From the NCBI GenBank assembly GCA_030681475.1, contig JAUXWT010000004.1, forward strand, positions 1-53,142: a stretch of 53,142 bases of DNA, written 5' to 3'. The translations under genes and the position numbers were made by a program. This document shows, in pieces, positions 4,273 through 22,976 of the stretch. The notes under the pieces are model-generated. The model was not told the DNA's origin. It saw only the letters and a program-made list of their open reading frames with translations, and searched no databases. The stretch is from Bacteroidales bacterium. Its GTDB lineage: Bacteria > Bacteroidota > Bacteroidia > Bacteroidales > FEN-979. Every line of letters begins with the position of its first letter. Position 1 is the stretch's first letter.

Positions 4273-4283
4273 GGTTTTACAGA

Positions 4284-6260: not shown

Positions 6261-6290
6261 ACACTATCGAAGTTGTCGCTGGCAAAAATA

Positions 6291-7232
6291 ATGGTTGCTG
6301 CAAGACAGGAAATCAGAAACCGGAGATTAAGTGAACATACGGAAAAGGCCTATCTTGACTGGATGTATCGGTTTCTTACGTTTCATCATACCCTCTTGCC
6401 GGATGAATTAACCGAAAAAGAGATCGGTACATTTCTTTCATTTCAGGCCGTCAGCAAACAGGCTCCCTCTTCAACTCAGAATCTGGCATTGCATGCTGTT
6501 TTATTTCTTTATCGTCATGTATTCAAGCGCACAGCCAAAAAAATCAGGTTTATCCGTGTAAAAAGAACAACAGGTAATCTCACAGTTTTTAGCCGTGAAG
6601 AGATCAGGCAGCTTCTTTTGCAGTTAACCGGAGAAAAAAAATTGATCATATCCCTGTTATACGGTTGTGGTTTGAATTTAAATGAATGTTTATCACTCAG
6701 GATTCAGGATGTTGATTTTGAAGACAACATCCTCTTTATCAGAAAAACATCAACAGAGGAGACCCGAACACTTCGCATTCCGGATAAACTCAGGGAGGAG
6801 ATGATTTCGAGGGTGGAAGCGCTGAGATACAGGTTTATGCATTTATCGATCCATGGTTATTGCGGGGTATCAATCCCTGAATCGGTAAAAAACAGCCAGC
6901 CTGAAGCGGAAAAATCGTTTTCATGGTTTTTTCTGTTTCCAACAATGAAACCTGTCAGACTTGTAGGGAAAGGAAGTGAACGTTTTCATCACAGAAGTGA
7001 AACCTATGTACAAAAAGCGCTAAGAAATGTCTTGAAAAAAGCCGGAATAAAAAAAAAGGCCTCCTGCCGTTCGCTCCGTCATAGTTACGCCGTACACTTA
7101 TTAAAAGAAGGGCGCGATATTTATGATGTTCAGAAGTTACTTGGACATAAAAATATCAGAAATACCCTGGTCTATAAACAGTTCATCAAGACACAATCAG
7201 GAGTTCCGGATAGTCCGCTTGACAATTTGTAA
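6291..7232 (+). CDS. Integron-integrase-like tyrosine recombinase with altered catalytic residues
   Basis: About 313 aa from ATG at 6291; a TTG at 6273 would add six residues, but ATG is preferred. It follows IntI over its whole length: a SAM-like core-binding domain, the IntI-specific insert (GYCGVSIPES ... SWFFLFPT), LLGH, the Tyr in NTLVYKQF, and the IntI-like ending SPLDNL. However, the first catalytic Arg (YGTGLR in IntI1) is Asn in YGCGLN, and the His of H-x-x-R is Arg (CRSLRHS). The second Arg, the last His and the Tyr remain. Strand exchange is therefore doubtful. It may be a DNA-binding relic or a regulator of the hdr cassettes on either side. No attC-like cassette array follows. Confidence 0.8.
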   Translation: MVAARQEIRNRRLSEHTEKAYLDWMYRFLTFHHTLLPDELTEKEIGTFLSFQAVSKQAPSSTQNLALHAVLFLYRHVFKRTAKKIRFIRVKRTTGNLTVFSREEIRQLLLQLTGEKKLIISLLYGCGLNLNECLSLRIQDVDFEDNILFIRKTSTEETRTLRIPDKLREEMISRVEALRYRFMHLSIHGYCGVSIPESVKNSQPEAEKSFSWFFLFPTMKPVRLVGKGSERFHHRSETYVQKALRNVLKKAGIKKKASCRSLRHSYAVHLLKEGRDIYDVQKLLGHKNIRNTLVYKQFIKTQSGVPDSPLDNL

Positions 7233-7367: not shown

Positions 7368-9170
7368 ATGAACGACAAGGATTCTATCGGTATATTTTTC
7401 TACAACTTACCTGTATCGATGGGTGAACCCATCGACTACACCGAGTTAACCAGATATGTTCAGTCAATGCCGCAGGTTACAAAGACCTGGTTATATACCG
7501 ACTTTCAGTGGAACGAAGATACCATAAGAAAAAAGGTCGAGAGTCACAACCTTACCAGGATCATCATTGCCGGTGCCTTGCCAGGAACAGTTAAGGGATT
7601 GTTTTCCAAAGCAATGGCAATGTCAGGCAAAGATTCTCAATCTGTTATGCTGGCCTCCTTCAATCAATATGGTATTTGGTCGGGGAAAGATTCAGAACGC
7701 GCCAGAGCTTTGCTTCTATGCGCCATCAGGGATATTCCTTATGAGATTGCAGCAACTCCGGATGACACAACCGTTAACCCGGTCACGCTTATCATCGGGG
7801 CTGGTATTGCAGGTATTCAGGCAGCGCTTGAAATTGCCGGTGGAAACAACCTTGTTTATCTTCTTGAAAAAACCGGTACCATTGGCGGTAAAATGGCTAC
7901 TTTCGACAAGACCTTCCCTACGCTCGACTGCGCAGCATGCATCCTGACACCTAAAATGGTCGAAGTAAACCAGCATCCCAACATTAGGCTGATGACCTAT
8001 TGTGAGGTAAAGGAGGTGAAAGGCGAAGCCGGGAATTTTAATGTCAGGATCCTCCAAAAAGCAAGAAAGGTCAACGTCACTACTTGTATCGGTTGCGGTA
8101 CCTGCGCTGAGAAATGTCCGGCCTCCGCCCCCAGTGAATTTGATGCCGGAACAACCATGCGAAAAGCAATTTATATGCCTTTTCCACAAGCTGTACCAAA
8201 TAAATACATGATTGATGCTGAGTCGTGTATCTACCTTAAAACCGGCAAATGCAAAGCATGTGTGAAGGCTTGTCCGGTTCCCGATTGCATTAACCTCGAT
8301 GAGCAGGACAAGGAGGTTTCCCTGAATGTTGGAAATATCATCATCGCCACAGGCTACAAAACCTTCGACGCTATGAAGATGGAACAATACGGGTATGGTA
8401 AATATCCCAACGTTCTGAATGCCCTTGAATTTGAAAGACTTCTTAATGCATCCGGACCTACAAGTGGGAACATCCATTTCCGCAGCCAGGATAAAAAAGG
8501 CAACTGGATTTTTACAACCGAATCTGATAAACCGGAAAAACTTGCGATTATCCATTGTGTGGGCAGCAGGGATAAAAACCATAACAAGCACTGTTCACGA
8601 GTTTGCTGCATGTACTCCTTGAAATTTGCCCATCTGATCCTTGAAAAAATACCTGAGGCAGAGGTTTATGAATATTTTATCGATATGCGGGCCTTTGGGA
8701 AGGGTTATGAAGAATTTTATCAACGCATCAAAGAAGAAGGTGTTTCGATCATTCGCGGAAAAACTGCCAAGGTCGAAGAAAAAAACGGAAAACTGCTGAT
8801 CCGGGGTGAAGATATTGTTAATTCAACCCTGATCGAAAACTCGGTCGATATGGTTATCCTGTCAACAGGACTAGAACCAGGAGAAGACACAAAAAGGATC
8901 GGTGAAATGCTGAGGATCCCTTCAACGGCCGACGGCTGGTTCGAAGAGGCCAACTACAATACAAATCCCACGGGAACATTCCGCGGAGGAATCATGCTCG
9001 CAGGTAGCTGTCAGGGGCCAAAAGACATCCCCGACTCCGTTGCACAGGGCTCTGCCGCAGCAGCACGGGTTCTGCAAAGCATCATCAGAGGACATGTCTC
9101 AAAAGATGTTTCAGCCTTGTCGTTGCATGATATCGAAAAACGCATCAATGAGCTTTCACCGGTTATATAA
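7368..9170 (+). CDS. hdrA: HdrA-like flavoprotein, inserted-ferredoxin form (right cassette)
   Basis: 600 aa, collinear with the protein at 4284-6086. It has FAD motif GAGIAG, LDCAACILTPK, an inserted 2[4Fe-4S] ferredoxin (CIGCGTCAEKCP, then CKACVKACP) and the HdrA cluster cysteines (HCVGSRD ... CSRVCC). The N-terminal domain lacks the cluster cysteines and there is no C-terminal ferredoxin. It is the first gene of a seven-gene operon that ends in the hydrogenase. Its ATG lies four bases after a perfect Rex-type operator and no clear ribosome site is seen, so the leader is very short. Probably receives or delivers electrons through FAD in a complex with MvhADG and QmoC. Confidence 0.87.
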   Translation: MNDKDSIGIFFYNLPVSMGEPIDYTELTRYVQSMPQVTKTWLYTDFQWNEDTIRKKVESHNLTRIIIAGALPGTVKGLFSKAMAMSGKDSQSVMLASFNQYGIWSGKDSERARALLLCAIRDIPYEIAATPDDTTVNPVTLIIGAGIAGIQAALEIAGGNNLVYLLEKTGTIGGKMATFDKTFPTLDCAACILTPKMVEVNQHPNIRLMTYCEVKEVKGEAGNFNVRILQKARKVNVTTCIGCGTCAEKCPASAPSEFDAGTTMRKAIYMPFPQAVPNKYMIDAESCIYLKTGKCKACVKACPVPDCINLDEQDKEVSLNVGNIIIATGYKTFDAMKMEQYGYGKYPNVLNALEFERLLNASGPTSGNIHFRSQDKKGNWIFTTESDKPEKLAIIHCVGSRDKNHNKHCSRVCCMYSLKFAHLILEKIPEAEVYEYFIDMRAFGKGYEEFYQRIKEEGVSIIRGKTAKVEEKNGKLLIRGEDIVNSTLIENSVDMVILSTGLEPGEDTKRIGEMLRIPSTADGWFEEANYNTNPTGTFRGGIMLAGSCQGPKDIPDSVAQGSAAAARVLQSIIRGHVSKDVSALSLHDIEKRINELSPVI

Positions 9171-9185
9171 TATGGAGGAATAATT

Positions 9186-10316
9186 ATGAGTGTCCGTTTA
9201 AATCCAGATCTCAGGAATGAACTGGTTCAATATGGGATCGGCGATTGGAATGCGTGTTACCATTGCGGGACATGCACCGCCATGTGCCCTTTGTCGGAGG
9301 AAGGATTTCTGTTCCCGCGCAAAAAGATCAGACTGATGCAGATGGGGCTCGGAGATCAACTCGAAGCGAGTGTTGAACCATGGCTTTGCTATTACTGCGG
9401 CGATTGTACCACTACCTGCCCACGGGATGCAAACCCCGGCGAACTGATGATGTCGCTCCGCCGGTTTATGACTTCAAGGTATGACTGGACAGGGCTTTCC
9501 AAGAAGTTCTACACCTCTGAAGTATGGGAACTGGCATGGATCATTTTCTTCGCAATTTTGGTTGTGCTCTCTTTCGTAATCGTACTTCCTTCCTTCGGAT
9601 TTCATTATACTTCAGAACTGACGGCAGACGGAGGCGTCAAGGTGAACTCCTTCGCCCCGATCCGCATCATCGAAACATTCGACTGGGCAATGGCCATCAT
9701 CGTGGCTACGCTTCTGATGTCAAACATACTCCGGATGTACTACGCAATCATTTGGAAACACACCAATACAAAAGTCTCCCTGTGGGTTCACATCCGGGAA
9801 TTATGGCTGTTGATCTACAATTTTATGGTCCAACCCAAATTTTCAAAATGCGACAGTAAAGGGTATTGGGTCTCTCACTGGTTTCTGATGTCGGGTTATA
9901 CCATTATGTTCATTGTCATTGTTGTCTTTCTGCCCTGGTTCCAAACCGAGGAAATACTTCCGGTTTATGATCCGCAACGTTTGCTTGGTTATTATGCCAC
10001 TTTTGGCCTGCTTTTCGGTCTGTTTATTGCCATTGTCGGACGGGTAAAGAAAAAGGAGGTCAAATTTCAATTTTCTCATATAAGCGACTGGCTGTTCTTA
10101 GCCATGCTGACCCTTACAGTTATAACAGGGATCCTGATCCATATATTCAGGATCAATGGAATGCCGATGGCAACTTATATTTCCTACATAGCACACATGG
10201 CCATACTCGTTCCCATGATCCTGATCGAGGTGCCATTTTCGAAATGGTCACACCTCGCTTACCGGCCATTTGCCGTTTACATTGCACAACTGAAAAAAAA
10301 TGCGGTACCAAGATAA
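9186..10316 (+). CDS. QmoC-like HdrC-cytochrome b fusion (right cassette)
   Basis: 376 aa. The N-terminal HdrC-like part has CYHCGTCTAMCP and LCYYCGDCTTTCPRD, giving two [4Fe-4S] clusters. It is followed by about six membrane helices and the family ending PFSKWSHLAYRPF. It is a close paralogue of the protein at 3109-4272. A strong GGAGG ribosome site lies 15 bases after the preceding gene. It is expected to anchor the HdrA/Mvh proteins to the membrane and exchange electrons with menaquinone through heme b. Confidence 0.83.
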   Translation: MSVRLNPDLRNELVQYGIGDWNACYHCGTCTAMCPLSEEGFLFPRKKIRLMQMGLGDQLEASVEPWLCYYCGDCTTTCPRDANPGELMMSLRRFMTSRYDWTGLSKKFYTSEVWELAWIIFFAILVVLSFVIVLPSFGFHYTSELTADGGVKVNSFAPIRIIETFDWAMAIIVATLLMSNILRMYYAIIWKHTNTKVSLWVHIRELWLLIYNFMVQPKFSKCDSKGYWVSHWFLMSGYTIMFIVIVVFLPWFQTEEILPVYDPQRLLGYYATFGLLFGLFIAIVGRVKKKEVKFQFSHISDWLFLAMLTLTVITGILIHIFRINGMPMATYISYIAHMAILVPMILIEVPFSKWSHLAYRPFAVYIAQLKKNAVPR

Positions 10317-10348
10317 TTGATTTCAACAGGTAAAGTAATACAAACCCC

Positions 10349-12082
10349 ATGGAAGAACCAAGAATAGGCGTTTACGTTTGCTGGTGCGGTACCAACATCG
10401 CGAAAATGGTCGATGTCGAACAAGTTGCCGATGAAGTTAGTAAGCTTCCGCATGTCACCATCTCCAAAACCTATAAATATATGTGTTCGGATCCTGGCCA
10501 GGAGCTGATCATCAAGGACATTCGTGGCCACAAACTGAACCGGGTCGTGGTTGCGGCATGCTCTCCCCGTATCCATGAACTGACTTTCAGGAAAGCAGTT
10601 GAGAAAGCCGGGATCAATCCGTACCTATTTGAAATGGCCAACATCCGTGAGCAGAATTCATGGGTACACACCGACCGGACAGAAGCCACATCAAAAGCCC
10701 TTGACCTGGTTGTTGCGGCCATCCGTCGGGTGCAATATCATGAACCACTGCAGAAGCGTTCGGTGAATGTTGATCCGGCTACCCTTGTCCTGGGAGGCGG
10801 CATCGCCGGAATGGCTGCTGCACTGGAGATCGCCAACGCAGGGAAACAGGTTTATCTGGTCGAGAAAACTGACCGGCTTGGCGGCCAGGTCGCGAAATTC
10901 GATCTGACATTTCCGTACCTGTCGAGCGCCAGACAGTTAATCCAACCTTTTATTCAGCGTACCGAAAACCATCCGAACATCGATCTGTTCCTCAACACGG
11001 AGATCAAAGAGGTTACAGGGTACATCGGTAATTTTAAATCAAAAGTTGAGACAGCAGAAAACGGAACCATTGAACTGAACTTTGGAAACATAATCGTAGC
11101 TGTCGGACTAAAGCCTTTTAACCCGACAGTCATCAGTGAATACGGATATGGACAATTCCCTGATGTGATCACTTCACTGGAATTTGAAGAGATGTTATCC
11201 AACGGGCACCTCCTGACAAAGTATGGCAAAGAGCCCAGAAACATTGCCATCATCCATTGTGTCGGAAGCAGGAATAAAAAATATCATGAATATTGTTCCC
11301 GGGTATGCTGCATGGCTGCGCTTAAATTTGTTCATGAAATCAGGGCCTGCCTTTCATCAGCCAATATTTTCGAGATCTATGCCGATATGCGCGCATATGG
11401 CAAAGGTCATGAAGAGTTCTATGCACTGACCACACACAAGCAGATCATATTCCTGATGTATGATCAGCAGGAATCGCTCCCGGTTATCCGTCAGGCGAAC
11501 CGGAATGACAATTGCAACATGATCATCGAAATGGATGAAAAGTTGTCGGGAGAATCGATCGAGGTTCCGGTTGATATGGTCGTCCTGATGGTTAACATGG
11601 AGGCACACGAAAATGTTAAAGAGGTCGTTCGTGCCGTTGGGGTGAGTTTGTGCGGAAATCAGTTTTTTATAGAAAAACATCCGAAACTCGATCCTGTCGC
11701 AACTACGACAGGTGGTGTTTTTATTGTAGGTTCATGCCAGGGACCGAAGGATATTCCTGATTCGGTTGCCCAGGCAAGGGCTGCGGCAGCCCGGATACTG
11801 GCTTCTATCGCACAGGGTTCAGTAGCCGTTGAAGTTACCACTGCCAGTGTTATTGAGCACTTGTGTTGTGGTTGCCAGACCTGTATAAGGGTTTGTCCAT
11901 ACGATGCAATATCATACAACGAAGAAAAACAGGCGTCGGAGATCAACGAGGTGCTTTGTAAAGGTTGCGGGACATGTGGTTCTGCCTGTCCTGCCGGAGC
12001 GATCCTCAGCAAGCATTTCACCGACACCCAAATTCTTGCTGAAATTACAGGAATCATGTCAATGTCATATAAAGGAGCATAA
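10349..12082 (+). CDS. hdrA: HdrA-like flavoprotein, C-terminal ferredoxin form (right cassette)
   Basis: 577 aa, paralogue of the protein at 1367-3097. The N-terminal cluster domain has Cys11, Cys13, Cys46 and Cys71, but the conserved cysteine at 103 is Asn (REQNSWVH). There is a FAD Rossmann motif GGGIAG, the C-x11-C-x3-CC cluster motif, and a C-terminal ferredoxin ([24 protein letters not shown]) followed by [10 protein letters not shown]. In methanogens the C-terminal part of HdrA docks MvhD, and the mvhD gene follows after two bases, so this HdrA is the likely hydrogenase partner. Confidence 0.87.
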
Positions 12083-12084: not shown

Positions 12085-12519
12085 ATGAGCTACAGACCAA
12101 CAATCGTCGCTTTCCTCTGCAACTGGTGTGCATATACCGGCGCCGACCTTGCGGGGACCTCCAGGTTGCATTACGCACCCAACATCAGGATCATACGTGT
12201 GATGTGTTCGGGCAGGGTAGAACCAACGTTCATACTTAAAGCATTTCAGCAGGGCGCCGATGGTGTTCTGGTTTGCGGATGCCATCCGGGAGATTGTCAC
12301 TATCATGAAGGAAACTATAAATGCCTGCGCCGGTTTAAACTGATTCAAAAATATGTCGATCAGATGGGAATTGAAAAAGACCGTCTCCGGCTTGAATGGA
12401 TCAGCGCAAGCGAAGGACAACAGTTTGCCGAGTTGGTCAACAACATGACCAAAACGCTACTTTTGCTCGGCCCCGTTAAAATACAACGTTCACTGGAAGT
12501 TCAACATTTAAAACAATAA
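12085..12519 (+). CDS. mvhD: MvhD-like hydrogenase iron-sulfur subunit
   Basis: 144 aa, full length for MvhD. It begins with the family pattern [15 protein letters not shown], followed by VMCSGRVEP and [11 protein letters not shown], supplying cysteines for a [2Fe-2S] cluster. In methanogens MvhD passes electrons from the MvhAG hydrogenase to HdrA. It has a GGAG ribosome site and sits directly between HdrA and the hydrogenase small subunit, as expected for that role. Confidence 0.92.
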
Positions 12520-12522: not shown

Positions 12523-13506
12523 ATGTCTGACTCATCAATTCCGAATCCCAAAATCAAACTCGCAGTTTACTGGGGATCAGCATGTGGTGGCTGTTGCGTA
12601 TCGGTGCTTGATACCCATGAAAAACTGTTGGATATCGTCAACGCTGCCGACCTGGTGTTTTGGCCGATTGCCATGGACATCAAATACAAGGATGTGGAAG
12701 CCATGGCAGATCAATCCATTGACCTGACCCTTTTCAATGGCGCTGTCAGGAACAGCGAAAATAAACATATGGCTGAAGTGCTTAGAAAAAAATCAAAGGT
12801 ACTCGTAGCCTATGGCGCTTGTGCTTACATGGGAGGCATCCCGGGCCTGGCAAATTTTCATTCCAGGGAGGAGATTTTCAAACGGGTCTATGAAGAGAGT
12901 GAATCCACCCTGAACCCTGATAAGGTCCGGCCTGTTGAGGAATTCGAGGTAAAAGAGGGAGTGCTTAAAATTCCGGAGTTCTTCAACGACGTTTACACCC
13001 TGAATCAGGTCGTTGATGTGGATTATTTTATCCCGGGATGTCCGCCTCAGAGTGAACGCCTTGTTGAGGTGTTCACCGCAGTAATTACCGGCATCGGCCT
13101 TCCGCCGAAGGGCTCGGTGGTAGGCGCGCTCGAAAAAACCAACTGCGATGAGTGCCTTCGGAAAAAAACCGACAACAAAGTAATTAAGCGGTTCTACCGC
13201 CCCTGGGAGATCGAGGACGATAAGGAGACCTGTTTTCTGGAACAGGGTGTAATTTGTATGGGCCCTGCCACTCGCGGAGGCTGCGGCGTAAGATGTGTCA
13301 CAGGCCATTCTCCGTGTCGGGGATGTTACGGACCACCACCAAATTCAACCGACCCCGGCGCAAAAATGATGTCTTCAATAGGCACAATGATCGATGCCGA
13401 CAGCCCGGAAGAAATTGATGAAATTATTGAAACCATTGTGGATCCCGCCGGACTATTTTACCGTTTTAGCCTGCCCGGCTCAATTTTAGGGAGGAAAGTC
13501 TTATGA
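12523..13506 (+). CDS. mvhG: [NiFe] hydrogenase small subunit, group 3c (MvhG-like)
   Basis: 327 aa. It starts with the small-subunit motif WGSACGGCC for the proximal [4Fe-4S] cluster. Later come YGACAYMGG, PGCPPQ, and a C-terminal cysteine-rich part (CMGPATRGGCG, CRGCYG) for the medial and distal clusters. It has no Tat signal, so it is cytoplasmic. Its stop overlaps the ATG of the large subunit by four bases. It relays electrons between the NiFe site and MvhD. Confidence 0.92.
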   Translation: MSDSSIPNPKIKLAVYWGSACGGCCVSVLDTHEKLLDIVNAADLVFWPIAMDIKYKDVEAMADQSIDLTLFNGAVRNSENKHMAEVLRKKSKVLVAYGACAYMGGIPGLANFHSREEIFKRVYEESESTLNPDKVRPVEEFEVKEGVLKIPEFFNDVYTLNQVVDVDYFIPGCPPQSERLVEVFTAVITGIGLPPKGSVVGALEKTNCDECLRKKTDNKVIKRFYRPWEIEDDKETCFLEQGVICMGPATRGGCGVRCVTGHSPCRGCYGPPPNSTDPGAKMMSSIGTMIDADSPEEIDEIIETIVDPAGLFYRFSLPGSILGRKVL

Positions 13507-14966
13507 GTAAAATAACGATCGACCCGATAACCCGGCTTGAAGGCCATGGAAAGATAGAGATCTTTCTGACCCCGGATGGTGGCGTTGAAAATGTCTATTT
13601 TCAGGTGCCTGAATTGAGAGGATTTGAAAAATTCTGCGAAGGAAGGCCCGTTGAAGAACTGCCTTCGATTGTAACTAAAATTTGCGGGGTTTGTCCCGGG
13701 TGCCACCATATGGCATCAGGCAAAGCTGTCGATGCTGTTTTTGGCCTGACACCACCCCCTACTGCATTGAAGCTGCGTGAACTTTTTTATATGGCCCATT
13801 TTGTGCACAGCCATATCGCCCATTTCTACGCGTTAGCTGCCCCTGACTTTGTGGTCGGGCCAACCGCGAATCCCGCGGAAAGGAATATTTTGGGAGTAAT
13901 TGCCAAGGTGGGTCTCGAAATCGGAGGAGAGGTAATCAAGCAACGCCGGATCGCCCAGGAGATCCAGGCACTGATCGGGGGACACCAGACCCATGTGGTC
14001 ATGAATACGCCCGGTGGCGTTAAAAAGGGAATCAACGAGGAGCAGCGCGATGATATCGTTAAAAAAGCCGAAGGCTTTATCGAATTTTCGAAATTTTCGA
14101 TCCAGTTATTCAAGGATGTCGTTCTTGGAAATACTGAGTACGTTGATCTCATCCTGAAAGGCCCCTATGCGCTGAAGTTACACTCCATGGGCCTGGTGGA
14201 TGACCAAAATAAGGTGAATTTCTATGATGGCAAGGTGCGGGTGGTTGACACCGAAGGGAAAGAATTATTCAAATACTCCCCAAATGAATATACTGACTTT
14301 GTGGAGGAACGTGTTGAACCATGGAGTTATCTGAAATTTCCATACCTGAAGAAAATTGGCTGGAAAGGATTTGTGGAAGGTCAGGACTCCGGTGTTTACC
14401 AGGCAACGCCACTCTCCAGGCTGAATGCTGCCGATGGCATGGCTACACCGGTTGCACAAAAGGAGTACGATGCCATGTTTGCCATTCTTGGAGGAAAACC
14501 TGTACATGCAACGCTGGCAATGCATTGGGCCCGTCTGGTGGAATTGATCTATTCGGCAGAGCGCTGTCTTGAACTTGCCCAGGACCCAGATATTACCGGA
14601 ACTGAACTCAGGGCGCCCATTGGAAAAATTGTCGGAGAGGGCGTCGGTATCGTGGAGGCACAGCGCGGAACCCTGACACACCATTATTGGACCGATGAGA
14701 AAGGAATGGTCAAAAAGGTTAACCTTATCGTAGGAACAACCAATAATCATGCAGCAATCTGCATGTCGCTTAAAAAGGCTGCGCAAGGATTGATTAAAAA
14801 AGACACGGAAATTACCGAAGGAACCCTGAACATGATCGAAATGGCTTTCCGGGCGTATGATCCCTGTTTTTCATGTGCCACACACTCATTGCCGGGACAG
14901 ATGAGAATGGAACTGATCCTGAAAGACCTTGAAGGAAATATCATCCGTAAGATAAAAAGAAGGTAA
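13503..14966 (+). CDS. mvhA: [NiFe] hydrogenase large subunit, group 3c (MvhA-like)
   Basis: 487 aa. The NiFe site ligands are intact: KICGVCPGCHH (Cys61, Cys64) near the N-terminus and DPCFSCATH (Cys455, Cys458, His461) near the C-terminus. Twenty-six residues follow His461 and would be removed by the protease encoded next. It lacks export signals. The order MvhD-MvhG-MvhA and the linked HdrA genes place it in the HdrA-coupled group 3c. Likely reaction: reversible H2 oxidation feeding the Hdr/Qmo-type complex. GGAGGA lies before the ATG. Confidence 0.93.
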   Translation: MSKITIDPITRLEGHGKIEIFLTPDGGVENVYFQVPELRGFEKFCEGRPVEELPSIVTKICGVCPGCHHMASGKAVDAVFGLTPPPTALKLRELFYMAHFVHSHIAHFYALAAPDFVVGPTANPAERNILGVIAKVGLEIGGEVIKQRRIAQEIQALIGGHQTHVVMNTPGGVKKGINEEQRDDIVKKAEGFIEFSKFSIQLFKDVVLGNTEYVDLILKGPYALKLHSMGLVDDQNKVNFYDGKVRVVDTEGKELFKYSPNEYTDFVEERVEPWSYLKFPYLKKIGWKGFVEGQDSGVYQATPLSRLNAADGMATPVAQKEYDAMFAILGGKPVHATLAMHWARLVELIYSAERCLELAQDPDITGTELRAPIGKIVGEGVGIVEAQRGTLTHHYWTDEKGMVKKVNLIVGTTNNHAAICMSLKKAAQGLIKKDTEITEGTLNMIEMAFRAYDPCFSCATHSLPGQMRMELILKDLEGNIIRKIKRR

Positions 14967-14967: not shown

Positions 14968-15483
14968 TTGACCAGATTCGCAGAACGATCAGGAAAGGTT
15001 TTAGTGCTCGGGATCGGAAATGAGATATTGACCGACGATGGTATCGGGGTCAGACTCGTTGACGACCTTAAGGATAAAGGATTCCCACCAGAAGTAGTCT
15101 TTGAAAAAGGAACTGTGGGCGGATTGGAAATTCTTGAGTTTATTCAGGGATACCAGGAAGTTCTTTTTCTTGATGCCATTAAAACAACAGACGGTAAGGC
15201 GGGAGACGTCTATCACATGGATCTATCTGATTTTCTGGAAACATTGCATCTTTCCAACCTCCATGACGTCAGTTTTATCCAGGCAATCCGTCTCGGAAAG
15301 GAACTTGGATTCGATTTGCCGGCGAGACTCCGTATCTTCGCGGTGGAGATTGTGGAGGACCGCGTATTCAGCAGAAATTTTACATGCGAAATTGAAAAAC
15401 AATATCCCAGAATACTAAAGGAGGCCGAACATTTTATTCGTTCCAGAACGAAACAATATATGCTTGAAAATTCGCCTGGTTAG
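14968..15483 (+). CDS. Hydrogenase maturation protease
   Basis: 171 aa. It has GIGNEILTDDGIGV near the start, the nickel-sensing endopeptidase motif of the HycI/HyaD/FrcD family, with Glu and Asp ligands. It should cleave the C-terminal tail of MvhA after nickel insertion. Initiation is at TTG, two bases after the MvhA stop, with AGAAGG upstream. It ends the operon and overlaps the convergent fusion gene by four bases, so the two stop codons interlock. Confidence 0.88.
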   Translation: MTRFAERSGKVLVLGIGNEILTDDGIGVRLVDDLKDKGFPPEVVFEKGTVGGLEILEFIQGYQEVLFLDAIKTTDGKAGDVYHMDLSDFLETLHLSNLHDVSFIQAIRLGKELGFDLPARLRIFAVEIVEDRVFSRNFTCEIEKQYPRILKEAEHFIRSRTKQYMLENSPG

Positions 15484-18400
15484 TATGATTTTCTTTTGGT
15501 ATAATGTGTATGCAATAATTCTTCAGCTTTATTACCTTCAAGTTCATTTAAAAAATCCTTATAGATACTAATCACTTCAGGGTTTTCATGTGCCTTCCTG
15601 ATCTCCATTCCCATCTCTTCCGCATACAGTGCCTGAACCCTTTTCAACCTGATTTCAGGATTCGTGGGAATTGGTTGTCCCCCACCACCCAGGCAACCGC
15701 CCAGACAGGCCATGACCTCAACAAAATGTAATTGAGACGGCTTATTCCTGACATCCTCTATGAGGAATCTTGCATTTGCCAATCCGTGCGCGACTGCAAG
15801 ATGCAGCTCAACGCCGTTTAAAAACGACCATTGCTCAAGGCAATCTTTAAGTTTAAGTTTAATTTCCTTGATCCCAGCCATTCCTCGAACAGGTTGTATC
15901 ACGAGGTTCTCAAACGGGACATCCCTTCCGGTAACTTTTTCGTGGACGGTCCTCAATACAGATTCCATCACACCCCCGGTTGCTCCGTATATGACACCTG
16001 CGCCGGAAGCCTTGCCCATCAGTGTATCATAATGATCATTGGGCAGTGACCTGAAATCGATTCCTGCCTGGATGATCATAATTGCTAATTCCCTTGTAGT
16101 CAACACATAATCGATGTCCTTATATCCGCTGGAACGCATTTCGGGGCGGTCGGCCTCAAATTTCTTTGCGGTACAGGGCATAATTGAAACTGTGACAATA
16201 TTCTCAGGTTTCAAACCACACGTTTTTGCATAATAGGTTTTGGCCAAAACTCCGAACATCTGCTGTGGTGATTTACATGTTGACAGATGTTCCAGGGAAT
16301 CCGGAAATGCATGTTCCATAAATTTGATCCAGGCCGGAGAACAGGAGGTGATTATCGGCAATGAAACTGATTGATCGTTTAAGAGATAACGCCGGCGCAA
16401 CCGATCCAGAAACTCATCACCCTCTTCAATTGTGGTTACATCAGCGGAAAATGCAGTATCCAGTACCGTGTCAAAGCCCAACCTTCGCAATGCCGTAACC
16501 AATTTTCCGGTGACTCGTTTACCGGGTTCAATTCCGAGATCCTCACCAATGGCAACTCTTACTGCAGGTGCGGTTTGTACAATGACATGCTTCTCTTTAC
16601 TCCAGATCGCATTCCATACTTCTTCAATGTAGTTCTTTTCAACAAGGGCACCTGTTGGACATCTGTCGATGCACTGTCCGCAATTGGTACAAAATACTTC
16701 ATACAGGGACTTTCCCAAATAGGTGGAGATTTTCATTTCGCCACCTTTGTGGGCAACCCACACCGCACTTACCCCCTGAATTTGAGAACAAGTCCTCACG
16801 CAACGCTGGCAACGTATGCATTTGCGATCATCCTTGACAAGGGCAGGCGAAATAATATCAAGTGTAGCTTTTTCCTCTTTATGTAAATTGAGGTAGGTTG
16901 GATTGATAATCTTGAATTCGGAGGCAAGGTTCTGAAGTTCGCATTTCCCGTTTTTATAACAATTTGTGCAATCGGTAAAATGTTCAGAGAGCAACAATTC
17001 CAACATTGCCCTCCTTGCCGTTCTTACCTTAAGGCTGCTTGTATGAATCACCATTCCCTCCTCGACCGGGGTAGCACAGGAGGCGATCAATTGTTTGGTG
17101 TTTTCAAGTTCGACGAGGCACACCCGGCAATTCCCGGCGATCATTAAATCTTTGTGATAACACAGGGTAGGTATATGAATATTTTGTGAACGGGCTGCAT
17201 CAAGGATTGACAAATCCGCTTCAACAGAAACATCAATTCCATCCATCCTGATCTTTACCATTTTTTTAGCAGAGGTGTACCTTACCGCCCTGACGTAACT
17301 TTCATATTTTTCCTCTATCTCATCCTGGGCAAGTTGTATCGGAATGCTGATATAATCGTACAAATCCTGCCTTGTAAATTGGTGGACTTCAGATTTCTGG
17401 AGGTTTGCAGTTATGTGCTCACTATAGAGGGACAGCAATGCTGAAATCTCTGCCGCCGTAAAACCTTCATCAAATCGGGGAAAGGCAATATCATCTATAT
17501 AACTTATCAACAAGCTCCGGTTTGTATTTAAGATGGTAGAAGCCACCACATTGTATAATGTATGGAGTACCAGGTTTAATTCCGGTTGCTCCATCTGCTG
17601 ATAATGGGATAGCGCTTCACTATTCCTTGACGAAAAAACACTGGCATTAATGGTTGACAGGAGCCGTTCCTTTTCGGTGGTGAGTATCTCGTATATTAAA
17701 AGATTTGTTCTGACAGAAATGTGTTTTAAAGCAGCTTCGTTCCTCATATGCCATTCCATCGGGCTGCTTTTCATCCGGGCAAGGAGGAAAAGCAGTCTGC
17801 GGTTTATATGAAGTCTGTTAAGTGGTTCCCATCCTAAAGCGCTTCGTGTATAAGATGAATCGGTATCAAGTTTAAGGTCTATATACTTCAGCATCCAGAA
17901 ACGCTCAAACGGAGGAGGTGTGATTTTGAGTTTACCCAACAGAATCCTCAAAGCAATACCGGGGTAAGCCAACACACGGGGTAGGAAAATGGGCTTCACA
18001 GGTAAACCGAAGAAATCTTTTGTTGCGATGCTAAAAAGATCCCGGTGAGAGGTACTCCCGTCAGGACTGGCAGCATACACATCATAGGAAGGCAGGACAT
18101 GGCTGTTTTGCAATATTGTTAAAATCTGTCTGACGACGTCGTGAATATGAATGTATGGAACTGCTGAATTACCTTTACCACCCAGTATGCGGGAATCATA
18201 CCCTTTTGACAGCCAGGTGCCAAGAAACTTATATAAGGGAGGATATTCGCACCAATCACTGAAAACAGCCGCAAATCGGATCACTGTTGCCGGGACATCT
18301 TTAGATAATTCCAGCAACATGGCTTCTCCGGCCTTTTTAGTATTTGCATAAGCGTAATTTGCATCTGCCGGCGTTTTCTCACAAATCGTTTCGCCGGAAC

Positions 18401-18794
18401 GCGGAAAATTGCAAGCGGCAAGAGAACTTGAAAAGAGGAACCGTTTTACCTTTAATACCCGCGCAACCTCAATCATATTCTTCGTGCCTTCAATGTTCGT
18501 CCGGTGATAGGCCACATCGTCATTAAAGTTAAAATCATAATATGCAGCAAGGTGCAACAGAAAATCTGCTCCTCCTCTCCGTTGAATGTTTAGGGTAACC
18601 TCGTGTATCTGTGTTGGATTGGAAATGTCCCATTGAATCCAGTGAATATTAGGATGATCTGAAATATTTGCCTCCTTCGCGGTTCTTCGGGCAATGGCAA
18701 ACACGGTATATTGCTCTTTGATATAATCAAGAAAATATCTGCCAATAAATCCCGATGCCCCGGTAACAATTATGGATGGAAGTGTCGCGCTCAT
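15480..18794 (-). CDS. Fusion protein: SDR epimerase-like domain, helical linker, [FeFe] hydrogenase
   Basis: A single uninterrupted 1104-codon frame. Residues 1 to about 325 form an extended SDR/NAD-dependent epimerase-like domain (GASGFIG at 12-18; catalytic pattern Y-ANT-K). About 340-500 is helical and resembles RsbR/RsbRD-type N-terminal domains, but that match is weak. From about 512 it is a full HydA: [2Fe-2S] (CYHKDLMIAGNCRVC), a His/Cys cluster (CTNCYKNGKC), 2[4Fe-4S] (CIRCQRCVRTC, CTNCGQCIDRCP), and H-cluster motifs TSCSPAW, MPCTAKKFEA and EVMACLGGCLGGGGQP. All cluster ligands are present. It is a close paralogue of HydA at 21183. The gene is divergent from hydCBA and overlaps the membrane-protein gene by four bases. 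It could be an H2 or redox sensor, or an enzyme; the sequence does not decide. Confidence 0.85.
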   Translation of the reverse strand: MSATLPSIIVTGASGFIGRYFLDYIKEQYTVFAIARRTAKEANISDHPNIHWIQWDISNPTQIHEVTLNIQRRGGADFLLHLAAYYDFNFNDDVAYHRTNIEGTKNMIEVARVLKVKRFLFSSSLAACNFPRSGETICEKTPADANYAYANTKKAGEAMLLELSKDVPATVIRFAAVFSDWCEYPPLYKFLGTWLSKGYDSRILGGKGNSAVPYIHIHDVVRQILTILQNSHVLPSYDVYAASPDGSTSHRDLFSIATKDFFGLPVKPIFLPRVLAYPGIALRILLGKLKITPPPFERFWMLKYIDLKLDTDSSYTRSALGWEPLNRLHINRRLLFLLARMKSSPMEWHMRNEAALKHISVRTNLLIYEILTTEKERLLSTINASVFSSRNSEALSHYQQMEQPELNLVLHTLYNVVASTILNTNRSLLISYIDDIAFPRFDEGFTAAEISALLSLYSEHITANLQKSEVHQFTRQDLYDYISIPIQLAQDEIEEKYESYVRAVRYTSAKKMVKIRMDGIDVSVEADLSILDAARSQNIHIPTLCYHKDLMIAGNCRVCLVELENTKQLIASCATPVEEGMVIHTSSLKVRTARRAMLELLLSEHFTDCTNCYKNGKCELQNLASEFKIINPTYLNLHKEEKATLDIISPALVKDDRKCIRCQRCVRTCSQIQGVSAVWVAHKGGEMKISTYLGKSLYEVFCTNCGQCIDRCPTGALVEKNYIEEVWNAIWSKEKHVIVQTAPAVRVAIGEDLGIEPGKRVTGKLVTALRRLGFDTVLDTAFSADVTTIEEGDEFLDRLRRRYLLNDQSVSLPIITSCSPAWIKFMEHAFPDSLEHLSTCKSPQQMFGVLAKTYYAKTCGLKPENIVTVSIMPCTAKKFEADRPEMRSSGYKDIDYVLTTRELAIMIIQAGIDFRSLPNDHYDTLMGKASGAGVIYGATGGVMESVLRTVHEKVTGRDVPFENLVIQPVRGMAGIKEIKLKLKDCLEQWSFLNGVELHLAVAHGLANARFLIEDVRNKPSQLHFVEVMACLGGCLGGGGQPIPTNPEIRLKRVQALYAEEMGMEIRKAHENPEVISIYKDFLNELEGNKAEELLHTHYTKRKSY

Positions 18795-19207
18795 GCGGTT
18801 GTCTTTTCAACAGAAAGGGTTTCAAATTTCCTAAATAGTATGTATGTAATGAGTATCGCCAGTCCCATCAAAAGATCTCCCGCCCCGGCAATGAATACCA
18901 TGAAAATCTGTTTTTCAAAGGCAAAATAGGAAAAAAGAAAAATGGCGGCTGAAAATTTTGTAAAACAGGACAAGAAGATGAGTCTTCCTGAATCTTCCGG
19001 TTTCAAGGCGGCCATAATATAGGCAACGCTGATGATCAGGTGAAACATGCCACCCTGTACAGCGAAAAACTTTTCGTAGAGTTGAAATCCGAATAATTCG
19101 ATGATGTTAATTGGTAAAATGATCAGCGCCAGACCAAAGCCAATTGAATGGAGTGCAATCAGGACGAGAACCCATTGCATCAATTTCCGATAATTTATAT
19201 GTTTCAT
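18791..19207 (-). CDS. Small four-helix membrane protein
   Basis: About 138 aa from ATG at 19207 (MKHINYRK); an upstream ATG at 19294 would add 29 residues without obvious value. Four hydrophobic segments are visible, with short charged loops (for example KPEDSGR) and a charged C-terminus. I recognise no family. Its stop overlaps the start of the SDR-hydrogenase fusion by four bases (ATGA), so the two are translationally coupled and may work together, the membrane protein perhaps tethering or signalling for the fusion protein. Confidence 0.65.
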   Translation of the reverse strand: MKHINYRKLMQWVLVLIALHSIGFGLALIILPINIIELFGFQLYEKFFAVQGGMFHLIISVAYIMAALKPEDSGRLIFLSCFTKFSAAIFLFSYFAFEKQIFMVFIAGAGDLLMGLAILITYILFRKFETLSVEKTTA

Positions 19208-19404
19208 GGCCCGATATTGTAATTCAGTAAAATTAATAAATCTTTGTGAAATAATAAACAATAGATTGTGGGATGTAAAACAAAAAATTGACATTCTGCA
19301 TGTTTATTATAATTTTGATCATCAAACTATTAATCGATATTTTCACAATTTCAGTTATTTAGACCGGGTTTAAATATCAGGTTTATTCTTGATTTTTTAT
19401 TCTA

Positions 19405-19490: not shown

Positions 19491-19958
19491 ATGGTACCAA
19501 CCGAAAGCAATTACATCAATGAATTGGTTGAGATTCACGGCAGGAGCAGAACGAGTTTAATGCCAATACTCCAGGGAGTTGTAGCTTTAAAGAATTACAT
19601 TTCCGACCAGGATATGACCGAAATAGCCAATGAACTTGATCTTTCCGCAGCCCAGGTTTACGGAACGGCAACATTTTATTCGTTCCTGGATACGATACCG
19701 CGTGGGGAGTATGTCATAAGGGTTTGTAAAACAATTACCTGCGACATGCATGGTAAAAGAACGATCATTCAGACCATGGAGGACATGCTGAAGATCAAAG
19801 TTGGAGAAACCACACCGAATAAAAAGTTTACACTTCTTGAGACAAACTGTCTGGGATGGTGTCACGAAGGTCCGGCTATGCTGATCAACGATACGCCTTA
19901 TAGCGGTCTAACTGTCGAAAAGGTGCATGATATCATCAGTGAATACATGAATAAATAA
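19491..19958 (+). CDS. hydC: HydC/NuoE-like [2Fe-2S] subunit of trimeric [FeFe] hydrogenase
   Basis: 155 aa, the usual size of NuoE/HydC. It has an N-terminal helical part and a thioredoxin-like domain with the [2Fe-2S] ligands in CKTITC and CLGWC. First gene of a three-gene operon with NuoF-like and HydA proteins, the HydABC layout. In HydABC enzymes this subunit exchanges electrons with the FMN subunit. Confidence 0.9.
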   Translation: MVPTESNYINELVEIHGRSRTSLMPILQGVVALKNYISDQDMTEIANELDLSAAQVYGTATFYSFLDTIPRGEYVIRVCKTITCDMHGKRTIIQTMEDMLKIKVGETTPNKKFTLLETNCLGWCHEGPAMLINDTPYSGLTVEKVHDIISEYMNK

Positions 19959-19983: not shown

Positions 19984-21150
19984 ATGTCAGAACAAACCCT
20001 AAAACGAGTTGATTTAATCTTCGGGGAATATTCAAACGAAAAATATAAGGTTTTAGCCACCTCACTGGAGCGGACCAATGAGGATATCCTTACAGATCTT
20101 TTGGAGTCAGGGCTTCGTGGCCGTGGCGGTGCAGGTTTCCCTACAGCCATGAAATGGAAGTATGCGGCAGAGGCTCCCGGCGATGAAAAATTTGTCGTGT
20201 GCAATGCCGATGAAGGCGAACCTGGTACTTTCAAAGACCGTGAAATCCTTTATCGCGTTCCGCGAAAAGTATTTTCAGGAATGGCTATTTGTGGACGCGT
20301 GATCGGCGCCGCAAAAGGTTACATTTACCTTCGTGGTGAATACAAATTCATGGTTCCGGAACTGAAGAAAGAACTGGAATCGTATCATGAACACATAAAA
20401 GAACTTGGTCTTGACTTTACCATCGAAATAAAAATGGGATCAGGCGCCTATATTTGCGGCGAGGAGAGCGCCTTGTTCGAATCGATGGAAGGCGGACGCG
20501 GTGAACCCCGTAACAAGCCCCCATACCCTACCACCAGTGGGTTTATGAAAAAACCAACCGTGATCAACAATGTGGAAACCTTTGTGAATGTTGTCATGAT
20601 TATGCGTCTCGGTCCCGATCAATATAAAAAGCTCGGCACCAGCGACTCACGTGGTTCAAAAGTTTTCTCTGTCTCCGGCGATACTCCTATTCCCGGTATT
20701 TATGAACTTGAACTCGGAATGCCCCTTGACCGGTTCGTAGACGAATTCGGAGATGGCGACACAAAAGCAGTTCAGGTTGGAGGAGCTTCAGGTTTCTGCG
20801 TTCCACGAAAAAAATTCAATGATACTGTCATTGGCTTTGAAGGCGTTCCTACCGGAGGTTCCATGATGATCTTTAACAGCTCACGATCCATGTACAATGT
20901 GTTGCACAATTATCTTGAGTTCTTTGAAGAAGAATCTTGCGGACAATGCACACCCTGCCGCGTTGGATGCCAGCAACTGCTTAAAGGAATTGTTGCCGTA
21001 AAAAAAGGCGAAAAGAAAGCGGTTTACCTTGACCAACTCATGAAACTGAGCGAAAGTATGAAAATTACTGCTAAATGCGGCCTTGGTCAATCGGTTGCCA
21101 ATTCATTTTCCTCCATTGTCAATAACTTCAAGGAAGAGATGATTTACTAA
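19984..21150 (+). CDS. hydB: HydB/NuoF-like FMN and NAD(H)-binding subunit
   Basis: 388 aa. GRGGAGFPTAMKW (FMN/NAD fold), the glycine-rich ESMEGGRGEPR segment, and the [4Fe-4S] motif ESCGQCTPCRVGC with a later Cys in AKCGLG. It lacks the N-terminal thioredoxin-like domain and C-terminal ferredoxins that some HydB proteins carry, so this is a core-only version. NAD(H) is the expected partner. With HydA and HydC it should form a soluble complex, possibly electron-bifurcating between NADH, ferredoxin and H2. Confidence 0.9.
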   Translation: MSEQTLKRVDLIFGEYSNEKYKVLATSLERTNEDILTDLLESGLRGRGGAGFPTAMKWKYAAEAPGDEKFVVCNADEGEPGTFKDREILYRVPRKVFSGMAICGRVIGAAKGYIYLRGEYKFMVPELKKELESYHEHIKELGLDFTIEIKMGSGAYICGEESALFESMEGGRGEPRNKPPYPTTSGFMKKPTVINNVETFVNVVMIMRLGPDQYKKLGTSDSRGSKVFSVSGDTPIPGIYELELGMPLDRFVDEFGDGDTKAVQVGGASGFCVPRKKFNDTVIGFEGVPTGGSMMIFNSSRSMYNVLHNYLEFFEEESCGQCTPCRVGCQQLLKGIVAVKKGEKKAVYLDQLMKLSESMKITAKCGLGQSVANSFSSIVNNFKEEMIY

Positions 21151-21182: not shown

Positions 21183-22976
21183 ATGACCAAAAAAATAAAT
21201 CTCACTATAGACGGTATCCATGTGGGCGTTGATGAGGGCGCTACGATCCTTGAAGCTGCCAGTAGCCTCAACATCCACATTCCTTCTCTATGTTATCACG
21301 AGGATCTTTGTGTAGCCGGGAATTGCCGTGTTTGTGTCGTAGAACAGGAGAATTCCAAAAACCTCCCTGCTTCCTGTGCGACACCTGTCGCCGAAGGAAT
21401 GGTCATCCTCACCAACAGCATGAAAGTACGCATGGCGCGTAAGCATATTGTTGAGCTTCTCCTTTCAGAACATAATGCCGATTGCACCAAGTGCTATAAA
21501 AACGGACTTTGCGAACTCCAGGGACTGGCATCACAAATGCTTACGGGCGATCACCTGTTTCTCGACCTGGTGCCCGATAAAAAATATACGATTGACATGT
21601 TCAATACGGCAATCATCAAAGATGACAGCCGCTGTATCCGTTGTCAACGCTGCGTGCGTACCTGCGAAGAATTACAAAGTGTCAGCGCCCTTGGCGTTGC
21701 TCACAAGGGTAATAAAATGAAAATATCCACCTTTTTTGAACATTCATTATTTGAAGTGGTTTGCACCAATTGCGGACAATGCGTGAACCGCTGTCCGACA
21801 GGCGCTTTGATCGAACGAAATTACATCGACCAGGTATGGGATGCTATTTATGACCCTGGCAAACATGTGGTTGTACAAACTGCTCCTGCAGTTCGTGTTG
21901 CACTCGGCGAATCGCTTGGAATGGCTACAGGAAGAATCGTCACGGGTAAAATGGTGGCCGCGCTCAGACGACTGGGCTTCGATTCAGTGCTGGATACCGA
22001 CTTTACTGCCGACCTGACCATTATCGAAGAGGGACACGAATTGCTCACCCGTTTAAAAAAGGCGCTGGTTGACAAAGACCCGACTGTCTCTTTACCAATG
22101 TTCACCTCCTGTTCACCGGGTTGGATCAAGTTTATTGAACATACTTTTCCTGATTACCTGCCCAATCTTTCAACCTGTAAATCCCCGCAACAAATGTTTG
22201 GTGCGCTGGCAAAGACTTATTACGCACAAAAAAGGAAACTTGATCCGAAGAATGTGGTCTCAGTGTCAATTATGCCTTGTACAGCGAAAAAATTCGAGGC
22301 AAACCGCCCCGAAATGCGTTCAAGTGGGTACAAAGATGTCGATTTTGTTTTGACAACCCGTGAGCTTGGGATCATGATCAAACAGGTAGGTCTGGATTTT
22401 GAAGCATTGCCTGAAGAGAAATTTGACAGTTTCATGGGCTCATCCACCGGAGCTGGAGTAATATTCGGCTCTACCGGCGGTGTAATGGAAGCTGCCTTGC
22501 GCACGGCATACGAAATCGTTACCGGTCGTGAAGTTCCATTTGAAGGGCTGAACATTTTACCTGTCCGGGGAACAGAAGGTGAAGTTCGTGAAGCCACCAT
22601 TAAAATTGAGAAAGTAAAACCCGAATGGGGTTTCCTGGAAGGTGTTGAATTAAAGTGTGCTGTGGCAAATGGACTTGCTCACGCGAAAACCATCATGCAA
22701 AACGTAAGGGATGGCAAGGCAAATTACCATTTCATTGAAGTAATGGCTTGCCCGGGTGGTTGCCTTGGCGGTGGTGGCCAGCCGATCCCTACCAATAAGG
22801 AAATAAGGACTAAGCGAAAAGCTGCAATTTATCAGGAAGATATGGGCATGCCCATTCGCAAATCCCATGAAAATCCCGAAATTGTAGAGATATATAAAGA
22901 ATTTCTCGAACATCCACTGGGTCATAAATCACACGAATTACTCCACACTAGCTACACTCCTCGAAAGAGATACTAA
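21183..22976 (+). CDS. hydA: [FeFe] hydrogenase catalytic subunit HydA (group A3 type)
   Basis: 597 aa. In order: N-terminal [2Fe-2S] (CYHEDLCVAGNCRVC), a His/Cys-ligated cluster (CTKCYKNGLC), 2[4Fe-4S] (CIRCQRCVRTC, CTNCGQCVNRCP), then the H-cluster domain with TSCSPGW, MPCTAKKFEA and EVMACPGGCLGGGGQP. It ends soon after the small-subunit-like tail (HTSYTPRKRY) and has no extra C-terminal [2Fe-2S] domain. The position after TSC is Ser, where CpI-type enzymes have the proton-relay Cys. Maturases HydE, HydF and HydG are not in this window. The operon ends at the terminator at 22997. Confidence 0.93.
   Translation: MTKKINLTIDGIHVGVDEGATILEAASSLNIHIPSLCYHEDLCVAGNCRVCVVEQENSKNLPASCATPVAEGMVILTNSMKVRMARKHIVELLLSEHNADCTKCYKNGLCELQGLASQMLTGDHLFLDLVPDKKYTIDMFNTAIIKDDSRCIRCQRCVRTCEELQSVSALGVAHKGNKMKISTFFEHSLFEVVCTNCGQCVNRCPTGALIERNYIDQVWDAIYDPGKHVVVQTAPAVRVALGESLGMATGRIVTGKMVAALRRLGFDSVLDTDFTADLTIIEEGHELLTRLKKALVDKDPTVSLPMFTSCSPGWIKFIEHTFPDYLPNLSTCKSPQQMFGALAKTYYAQKRKLDPKNVVSVSIMPCTAKKFEANRPEMRSSGYKDVDFVLTTRELGIMIKQVGLDFEALPEEKFDSFMGSSTGAGVIFGSTGGVMEAALRTAYEIVTGREVPFEGLNILPVRGTEGEVREATIKIEKVKPEWGFLEGVELKCAVANGLAHAKTIMQNVRDGKANYHFIEVMACPGGCLGGGGQPIPTNKEIRTKRKAAIYQEDMGMPIRKSHENPEIVEIYKEFLEHPLGHKSHELLHTSYTPRKRY

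Follow-up and report, generated by a model that had tools for sequence, protein, structure and literature searches.

What is a short-chain dehydrogenase/reductase (SDR) domain doing at the front of an [FeFe] hydrogenase? The question is raised by one gene in a 53,142-nucleotide stretch of DNA from a Bacteroidales bacterium (assembly GCA_030681475.1, contig JAUXWT010000004.1, positions 1 to 53,142; "the window" below means this whole stretch). The gene joins an extended SDR domain, a helical domain resembling RsbRD_N and the hydrogenase subunit HydA, and we refer to it as the SDR-RsbRD-HydA fusion. We find that the fusion is a real single polypeptide in Bacteroidales bacteria, that its first two domains also occur as a separate protein in other phyla, and that within its family the gene accompanies Hdr-Mvh genes. 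The features concerned, with a small membrane-protein gene that adjoins the fusion, are as follows.

15480–18794, minus strand: SDR-RsbRD-HydA fusion gene, 1104 amino acids
17775–18794, minus strand: extended SDR domain, residues ~1–340, with GASGFIG, Arg36-Arg37, S123/S124, Y149 and K153
17280–17774, minus strand: middle helical domain, residues ~341–505, predicted globin fold, RsbRD_N-like
15483–17270, minus strand: HydA part, residues 509–1104, with 2Fe-2S, Cys3His 4Fe-4S, two 4Fe-4S, H-cluster and small-subunit (SSU) domains
18791–19294, minus strand: small membrane-protein gene, 167 amino acids as listed; likely start at ATG 19207, judged from homologues

The Fusion Is a Single Protein

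The gene runs from ATG to stop in one frame of 1104 codons and encodes, in order, an extended SDR, a helical domain and a group A6 HydA (~511–1104). Pfam matches begin with Epimerase at residues 8–239 (E 1.6e-30; 106.7 bits against a cut-off of 20.9); there is no match between 239 and 510, and the C-terminal portion matches Fer2_4 (511–586), NADH-G_4Fe-4S_3 (594–629), Fer4_Nqo3 (652–717), Fe_hyd_lg_C (735–1038, E 1.9e-89) and Fe_hyd_SSU (1047–1101). The initial annotation, which had described an SDR, a helical middle and HydA in a single frame, is thus borne out by Pfam and NCBIfam domains. Its suggestion to look for the same architecture elsewhere was also rewarded: 14 full-length fusions are present in different assemblies, together with one truncated at a contig end (G006). 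Among 61 genomes (the window's own and 60 relatives), ten have full-length copies, these being the window's own and nine relatives belonging to its family; three more come from a collection of named loci (L073, L082 and L086), and G130, from a different family of the order, has one of 1105 amino acids. At least two Bacteroidales families and at least seven genera are represented (six in the family we call f1, one in the other). Length hardly varies, at 1104 amino acids in 12 fusions, 1103 in G019 and 1105 in G130, where L082, listed at 1119 from an earlier start, is counted as 1104 from the shared start. An alignment of 10 fusions has 1104 columns and a single residue gap in one row.

Two separate proteins, or an assembly artefact, could account for the window's ATG at codon 512 and for two broken copies, G036 (L039/L079), whose halves lie in different frames, and G024 (L040/L087), which survives in pieces only. 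We give this explanation next to no credence. The broken copies may reflect either decay or assembly faults, but a misassembly joining two genes, which the initial annotation had allowed for, is ruled out by the 14 full-length frames in different assemblies. Internal initiation, its other reservation, is likewise rejected: across codons 485–525, which span the junction, no start codon is common to more than 4 of the 14 fusions, 2 of the 14 have none at all, and ATG 512 occurs, of these 14, in the window alone. GC content differs little among the three domains (0.442, 0.417 and 0.446). The ratio of nonsynonymous to synonymous substitution rates (dN/dS) is 0.02–0.08 wherever dS could be estimated in seven fusion pairs, the SDR being estimable in one pair of the seven; these pairs, and four of HydA, were chosen by hand, with dS saturated or high throughout. 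Judged from these alignments, the fusion appears to be under purifying selection.

The Hydrogenase Half Belongs to Group A6

The HydA part scores above the cut-off for NCBIfam FeFe_hydrog_A6 (NF040763; 803.3 bits against 765), a model named NADH-dependent, with residues 513–1101 covering model positions 1–571. Its nearest match in the same genome is the HydA encoded at 21183–22976, and the nearest solved chains are HydA1 of the electron-bifurcating enzymes 8a6t and 7q4v (those of T. kivui and A. woodii), followed by CpI. The ligand Cys and His residues of the 2Fe-2S, Cys3His and two 4Fe-4S sites are invariant in 10 aligned fusions, as are C818, C874, C1030 and C1034; these residues are assigned to particular clusters by general knowledge of such enzymes. 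The H-cluster motifs read TSCSPAW (L1), MPCTAK (L2) and EVMACLGGC (L3). L1 therefore has Ser at the position aligned with CpI residue 300, a cubane ligand in CpI. Since the TSCSP form is shared by the neighboring HydA and a solved A. woodii-type HydA1 chain, Ser is normal for this subfamily. The statement in the initial annotation that all cluster ligands are present accordingly holds for the Fe-S ligands and needs qualifying at this one position of L1. HydF and HydG maturases are represented in the genome by one match each above cut-off.

No PAS, kinase or rubrerythrin match was found in the fusion at a Pfam threshold of 1e-3, and the Pfam scan matched no flavin domain. An identity as a sensory HydS of groups C/D was rejected given the group A6 score above cut-off and the lack of a PAS or kinase match; the intact Fe-S relay and the same score speak for a probable enzyme rather than a group C/D sensor.

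The N-Terminal Half Combines an SDR with a Predicted Globin Fold

Catalytic residues of the SDR domain are almost fully conserved: Tyr149 and Ser123-Ser124 are found in 79/79 aligned proteins and Lys153 in 78/79. Arg36 and Arg37 are each present in 77/79 and, by known SDR practice, such a double arginine suggests a preference for NADP(H). For named SDR functions (GalE, HpnA, dTDP-glucose dehydratase and others in NCBIfam), no equivalog cut-off was reached among the best 25 of 44 families, the top match being HpnA at 58.3 bits against a cut-off of 367.65. The nearest solved relatives are mainly sugar-nucleotide enzymes and are weak (best 5.6e-16). SDRs transfer hydride without flavin and, because no flavin domain was matched either, this domain is not expected to pass electrons straight to the Fe-S clusters; any coupling of SDR chemistry to H2 would have to run by way of NAD(P)H and the HydB flavin. 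The initial proposal that the SDR couples a nucleotide or sugar substrate to H2 therefore fares poorly, with flavin-free chemistry, no flavin domain and no equivalog cut-off reached.

Searched alone against Pfam, the window copy of the middle domain returned nothing useful. An AlphaFold2 model built from an alignment of 77 homologues (L087 and L124 excluded) has a mean predicted local distance difference test (pLDDT) score of 90.6. Foldseek matches to it, 50 being listed from the PDB, are mostly phycobiliproteins and globins with query-normalized template modeling (TM) scores of 0.51–0.64; the best E value is 0.028, and none of the matches listed reaches E ≤ 0.001. RsbRD_N (PF14361) is matched by 27 of the 77 homologues (best 2.7e-6), the window copy lacking a match at E 0.1, and a HisK-N-like globin domain by 5 of the 77 (best 0.0031). 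As modeled, the middle domain is a globin fold, probably of RsbRD_N type. The N-terminal domains of RsbR are non-haem globins, RsbR joins an RsbRD_N-type domain to STAS, and a stressosome has reportedly been described as an oxygen sensor. No His is conserved at ≥80% over 79 rows of the middle domain, and His358, invariant in 10 fusions, sits ahead of the model's first helix or within it, a region where globins do not hold haem; haem binding is thus unlikely. We infer no more than that a redox-sensing module, as the initial annotation had offered, fits an NADP-type SDR joined to an RsbRD-type globin-fold domain.

Within Its Family, the Fusion Follows Hdr-Mvh Rather Than HydABC

The fusion of the window lies between two sets of redox genes.

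7368–12082, plus strand: HdrA-like (600 amino acids), HdrC/QmoC-like (376) and HdrA-like (577) genes; best NCBIfam matches, below family cut-offs
12085–12519, plus strand: MvhD/FlpD
12523–13506, plus strand: MvhG/VhuG-like [NiFe] small subunit (Pfam, NCBIfam)
13503–14966, plus strand: MvhA/VhuA-like [NiFe] large subunit (Pfam, NCBIfam)
14968–15483, plus strand: hydrogenase maturation protease, HycI family, convergent with the fusion
19491–19958, plus strand: hydC, NuoE-like (Pfam)
19984–21150, plus strand: hydB, NuoF-like, 388 amino acids (Pfam)
21183–22976, plus strand: hydA, group A6 (NCBIfam), 63% identical to the HydA part of the fusion

At its 3′ end the fusion overlaps the convergent protease gene by 4 bases, and at its start it overlaps the small membrane-protein gene by 4 bases (ATGA). 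The latter gene sits between the fusion and hydCBA, so the initial description of a fusion divergent from hydCBA and sharing its intergenic region is right about the divergence, which is that of a two-gene unit, but overlooks the intervening gene.

The arrangement of a fusion between Hdr-Mvh and HydCBA occurs in the window and nine other loci. Within family f1 (37 genomes), MvhA is found at E ≤ 1e-100 in 14, and a fusion that is intact, cut or a remnant is present in 13/14 of these and in 0/23 others (P = 3.9e-9, Fisher's exact test, kinship ignored). The window's own genome has one MvhA-type match at that threshold in 4.24 Mb. Because HydA of HydABC type is present in 35/37 f1 genomes (two as fragments), HydABC does not explain where the fusion occurs. 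HydB of the A6 operon was nonetheless found in 5/5 fusion genomes tested, picked because HydABC was not seen beside the fusion: it lies ~25 kb away in G130 and on another contig in G425 (the genome of L082), and contig ends hide any adjacency in G034, G023 and G028.

The window carries two HdrA-HdrC-HdrA-like sets on opposite strands (1367–6086, minus; 7368–12082, plus) with a phage-type integrase gene (6273–7232) between them. A Crp-type regulator gene lies at 636–1346, and homologues of it also precede Hdr genes in L151 and L156.

The Unfused Protein and Its Membrane Partner Cross Phyla

Contigs were scanned with two peptide patterns, SD[WFL]CEYPP and [HQF]WIQWDI (the conservation of both motifs thus comes partly from selection), and of 107 confirmed places 80 were retained, which yielded 78 named loci. 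Thirteen are fused, 2 broken (L079, from G036, and L087, from G024), 1 cut by a contig end (L124) and 62 unfused. Unfused SDR-RsbRD proteins measure 490–724 amino acids as called, typically ~550; a 996-residue form in L110 was rejected as a fusion, the excess being an upstream open stretch. By database records the unfused loci span at least 10 phyla, including Bacteroidota, Acidobacteriota, Krumholzibacteriota, Calditrichota, Zixibacteria, Desulfobacterota, Neomarinimicrobiota, Gemmatimonadota, Myxococcota, Planctomycetota and others. Within the order, the middle domain occurs in 17 of 393 sampled genomes, five times as part of a fusion.

A homologue of the small membrane-protein gene is present in 62/78 loci. 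Where at least 1.2 kb is available on both sides (54 loci), it lies within 1.5 kb in 40; seven of the remaining 14 have one 2.8–6.1 kb away and seven have none. The protein has four hydrophobic stretches, judged by eye, and 10 invariant columns over 32 aligned rows, among them H22, H58, K86 and D113 (numbered by the first row of the alignment). These His, His, Lys and Asp residues could form a quinone, haem or proton site. In Pfam the protein shows only a weak resemblance to DUF4345 (E 0.38). The separate existence of SDR-RsbRD with a membrane partner, like the tie of the fusion to Hdr-Mvh in its family, escaped the initial annotation.

Hydrogenase genes recur nearby. An [NiFe] large subunit is encoded in 43/78 loci (22 in Bacteroidota and 21 in others, mostly of Acidobacteria type), a raw count, and in 17 of the 30 loci whose flanks reach 6 kb or more in both directions. 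Hyb-type genes are indicated by NCBIfam, below cut-off, in L107 and L112, and Rnf-like genes are found in L091 (by NCBIfam), L102, L103 and L106 (by inspection); other SDR-RsbRD loci have neither [NiFe] nor Rnf-like genes. The gene at L091:7436–9520 joins RnfB-like and GltD-like parts. In several Bacteroidales, the gene for the unfused protein has Hdr-Mvh on one side and a NuoEF-type [NiFe] operon on the other (L084, L093, L095–L097, L099, L153, from the same genome as L084, L157 and L159). NCBIfam confirms NuoEF in L093 and L084; in L096, L097, L099 and L159 the contig stops short of the [NiFe] genes, and L124 shows the NuoEF-[NiFe] side only.

A conserved protein of ~160 amino acids with a CYCPNGHNLVS-like motif is also encoded near the unfused SDR-RsbRD gene or the protease gene, at L093:1450–1959 and in L094–L096 and L099, as well as, by eye, in L154, L156 and L159.

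Origin of the Fusion

In a tree, the 16 rows of fused HydA, of which one is cut and another comes from the broken G036 copy, form one group, with support of 81/85 when G130 is included and 100/100 without it. The G130 row is long and uncertain, and the fused group, the HydABC HydA and two other rows form a polytomy. The window fusion groups with genus g8 (97/89) and the window HydABC HydA with its own genus (99/91); a transfer of the cassette from one genus to another is therefore possible. The loci concerned in the g8 grouping are the window fusion, L073, L074, L086 and L088.

These patterns are consistent with an old two-domain protein, an NADP(H)-type SDR and an RsbRD globin fold with its membrane partner, that would have been joined to a duplicated group A6 HydA. 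The layout between Hdr-Mvh and an NAD-linked operon looks old. We infer that the likely change was a replacement of the NuoEF operon by HydCBA, accompanied by the fusion of HydA.

Proposed Function and Alternatives

As a possibility that we would not yet call probable, we propose that the fusion serves as a second HydA subunit working with HydBC, and that the SDR-RsbRD half and its membrane protein tether and tune it. The HydA part would use the H-cluster and its own Fe-S chain to exchange electrons with H2, and would trade electrons as well with HydBC, the module of the HydABC operon that handles NADH. The SDR-RsbRD-membrane half would anchor the hydrogenase at the membrane near Hdr-Mvh and adjust it to the NADP(H) state or to some SDR substrate. 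HydBC use, membrane tethering, regulation and any SDR catalysis are all deduced roles in this proposal. In its favor stand the 14 full-length frames and their low dN/dS, the invariant Fe-S ligands and group A6 score, the HydF and HydG matches, HydB in every fusion genome tested, the single group formed by fused HydA, the tie to MvhA in f1, the unfused relatives in the same position beside a NuoEF-[NiFe] operon, the nearby membrane-protein gene, and the conserved Tyr and double arginine of the SDR.

Several observations weigh against it. Contacts with HydBC, Hdr-Mvh and the membrane protein are putative, and a full-length AlphaFold2 model (40 rows; pLDDT 74.5, predicted TM score 0.43), in which the SDR and middle domains are well predicted and the Fe-S region poorly, leaves the arrangement of domains unfixed. 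In two matched genome pairs, dN is about twice as high in fused HydA as in HydABC HydA (0.080 vs. 0.038 and 0.060 vs. 0.031). Fused and unfused HydA differ consistently at 20 positions, including 627–630 and 709–710 near Fe-S sites, and such differences could mean another partner. The association with Hdr-Mvh is itself imperfect: G021, in f1, has Hdr-Mvh genes but nothing of SDR-RsbRD next to them, and outside f1 MvhA occurs in 3/24 relatives, of which G050 has the unfused form and G048 and G058 have none that we could see. Co-occurrence with Hdr-Mvh could also stem from inheritance as one cassette. Finally, of the 30 loci flanked by 6 kb or more on each side, 13 lack an [NiFe] large subunit, and three genomes of the order (G180, G134 and G121) showed neither Hdr-Mvh nor a hydrogenase subunit within 20 kb of SDR-RsbRD; a protease gene is present near SDR-RsbRD in G180. 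A role of SDR-RsbRD confined to hydrogenases was rejected on these loci and genomes and, since such loci exist, its basic role is not tied to hydrogenases.

What else could the fusion be? It might be a regulatory sensor of H2 or redox state that carries little flux, with HydA reporting H2 or electron pressure and SDR-RsbRD relaying the NADP(H) or signal state. The RsbRD_N-type domain, the NADP-type double arginine and the faster evolution of fused HydA all favor this, yet the group A6 score, the lack of PAS or kinase matches and the retained Fe-S ligands do not, and a Tyr kept in every aligned SDR is at odds with purely sensing SDRs such as NmrA, in which the catalytic Tyr is not so kept; we consider a sensor rather unlikely. 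The same conserved Ser, Tyr and Lys, together with the invariant H22, H58, K86 and D113 of the membrane protein and the NAD(P)-handling systems that recur nearby (HydBC, NuoEF-[NiFe] and Rnf-like genes), would suit an H2-coupled dehydrogenase, in which an active NADP(H) SDR works on a membrane-bound or small substrate presented by the membrane partner while HydA and HydBC supply or remove NAD(P)H. This, too, seems unlikely to us: the missing equivalog match leaves no clue to a substrate, the A6 model is named NADH-dependent where the SDR motif is of NADP type, and many well-flanked loci lack an [NiFe] large subunit.

The electron partner is a further point of choice. That the HydA part is partnered by ferredoxin, or by Hdr-Mvh itself, instead of HydBC is suggested by the gene following Hdr-Mvh and not HydABC in f1 and by HydABC operons that are not adjacent in G130 and G425. 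But HydB was present in all fusion genomes tested, the N-terminal clusters typical of a HydBC-dependent HydA are intact, and linkage may reflect inheritance as one cassette, so we find this option improbable. Very improbable, in our judgment, is an SDR-RsbRD half that acts as a noncatalytic assembly factor or structural subunit with bound NADPH, as NDUFA9 does in complex I; its presence beside several unrelated redox systems would fit, but structural SDR subunits usually lose the catalytic Tyr and Lys, which are conserved here. A tethered second HydA served by HydBC is the reading that we favor.

Other Features of the Window

A regulator gene at 27726–28367 combines Put_DNA-bind_N and CoA_binding domains and is Rex-like; homologues are found in L080, L093, L095–L097 and L099. 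The region from ~37600 to 53142 is possibly a prophage, with a minor tail protein encoded at 43550–47362; a Pfam scan of four further long frames in this region gave no match.

Relation to Known Systems and Significance

Measured against the group A6 HydA family (NF040763), the fusion matches the same whole model and has the same forms of L1–L3; it differs by ~510 extra N-terminal residues (SDR plus predicted globin fold), by forming its own group in the tree and by its Hdr-Mvh linkage in f1. With the extended SDR family (PF01370) it shares TGASGFIG, Ser and YxxxK, to which it adds an RsbRD-type domain and a partner membrane-protein gene, no equivalog being reached. With RsbRD_N (PF14361) it shares the globin fold in the model and family matches in part of the homologues, whereas here the domain is joined to an SDR, has no His conserved at ≥80% over 79 rows and goes unmatched in the window copy. 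NuoEF-type NAD-linked [NiFe] operons (Hox-like or NiFe-HydABCSL-like) occupy the place of HydCBA beside unfused SDR-RsbRD, its partner and Hdr-Mvh; their active site is different, and SDR-RsbRD is unfused there.

We found no hydrogenase with an SDR-RsbRD N terminus, and no account of the module itself, in open-licence literature, in agreement with the statement of the initial annotation that it knew of none. By term search, a review of multimeric [FeFe] hydrogenases (PMC6288185) contains none of the words "fused", "fusion" or "epimerase", and a Hydrogenedentota study (PMC11406978) none of "fused", "fusion", "epimerase" or "short-chain". The closest parallel is HydR of Clostridium perfringens, an [FeFe] hydrogenase-rubrerythrin chimera (PMC11926857). 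HydR is likewise a natural single chain joining HydA to a domain of other function, but its partner is rubrerythrin, a metal peroxidase, in place of the SDR and globin-fold domain. Natural [FeFe] hydrogenase chimeras seem rare, and the characterized HydR opened a new reaction.

The fusion points to a widespread, unstudied SDR-RsbRD module that stands with its membrane partner beside hydrogenases and Rnf-like genes, and it offers a ready construct for testing which partner feeds which hydrogenase. In a broader picture that we hold as possible but rather doubtful, SDR-RsbRD and the membrane protein would be a phylum-crossing redox module that docks to group 1 [NiFe] hydrogenases, NAD-linked [NiFe] hydrogenases, Hdr-Mvh and Rnf, and one Bacteroidales lineage would have captured its own [FeFe] hydrogenase, yielding an enzyme tethered at the membrane whose H2 turnover is coupled or tuned to the NADP(H) pool. 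If true, this would show H2 metabolism physically tied to the NADP(H) pool or to the membrane.

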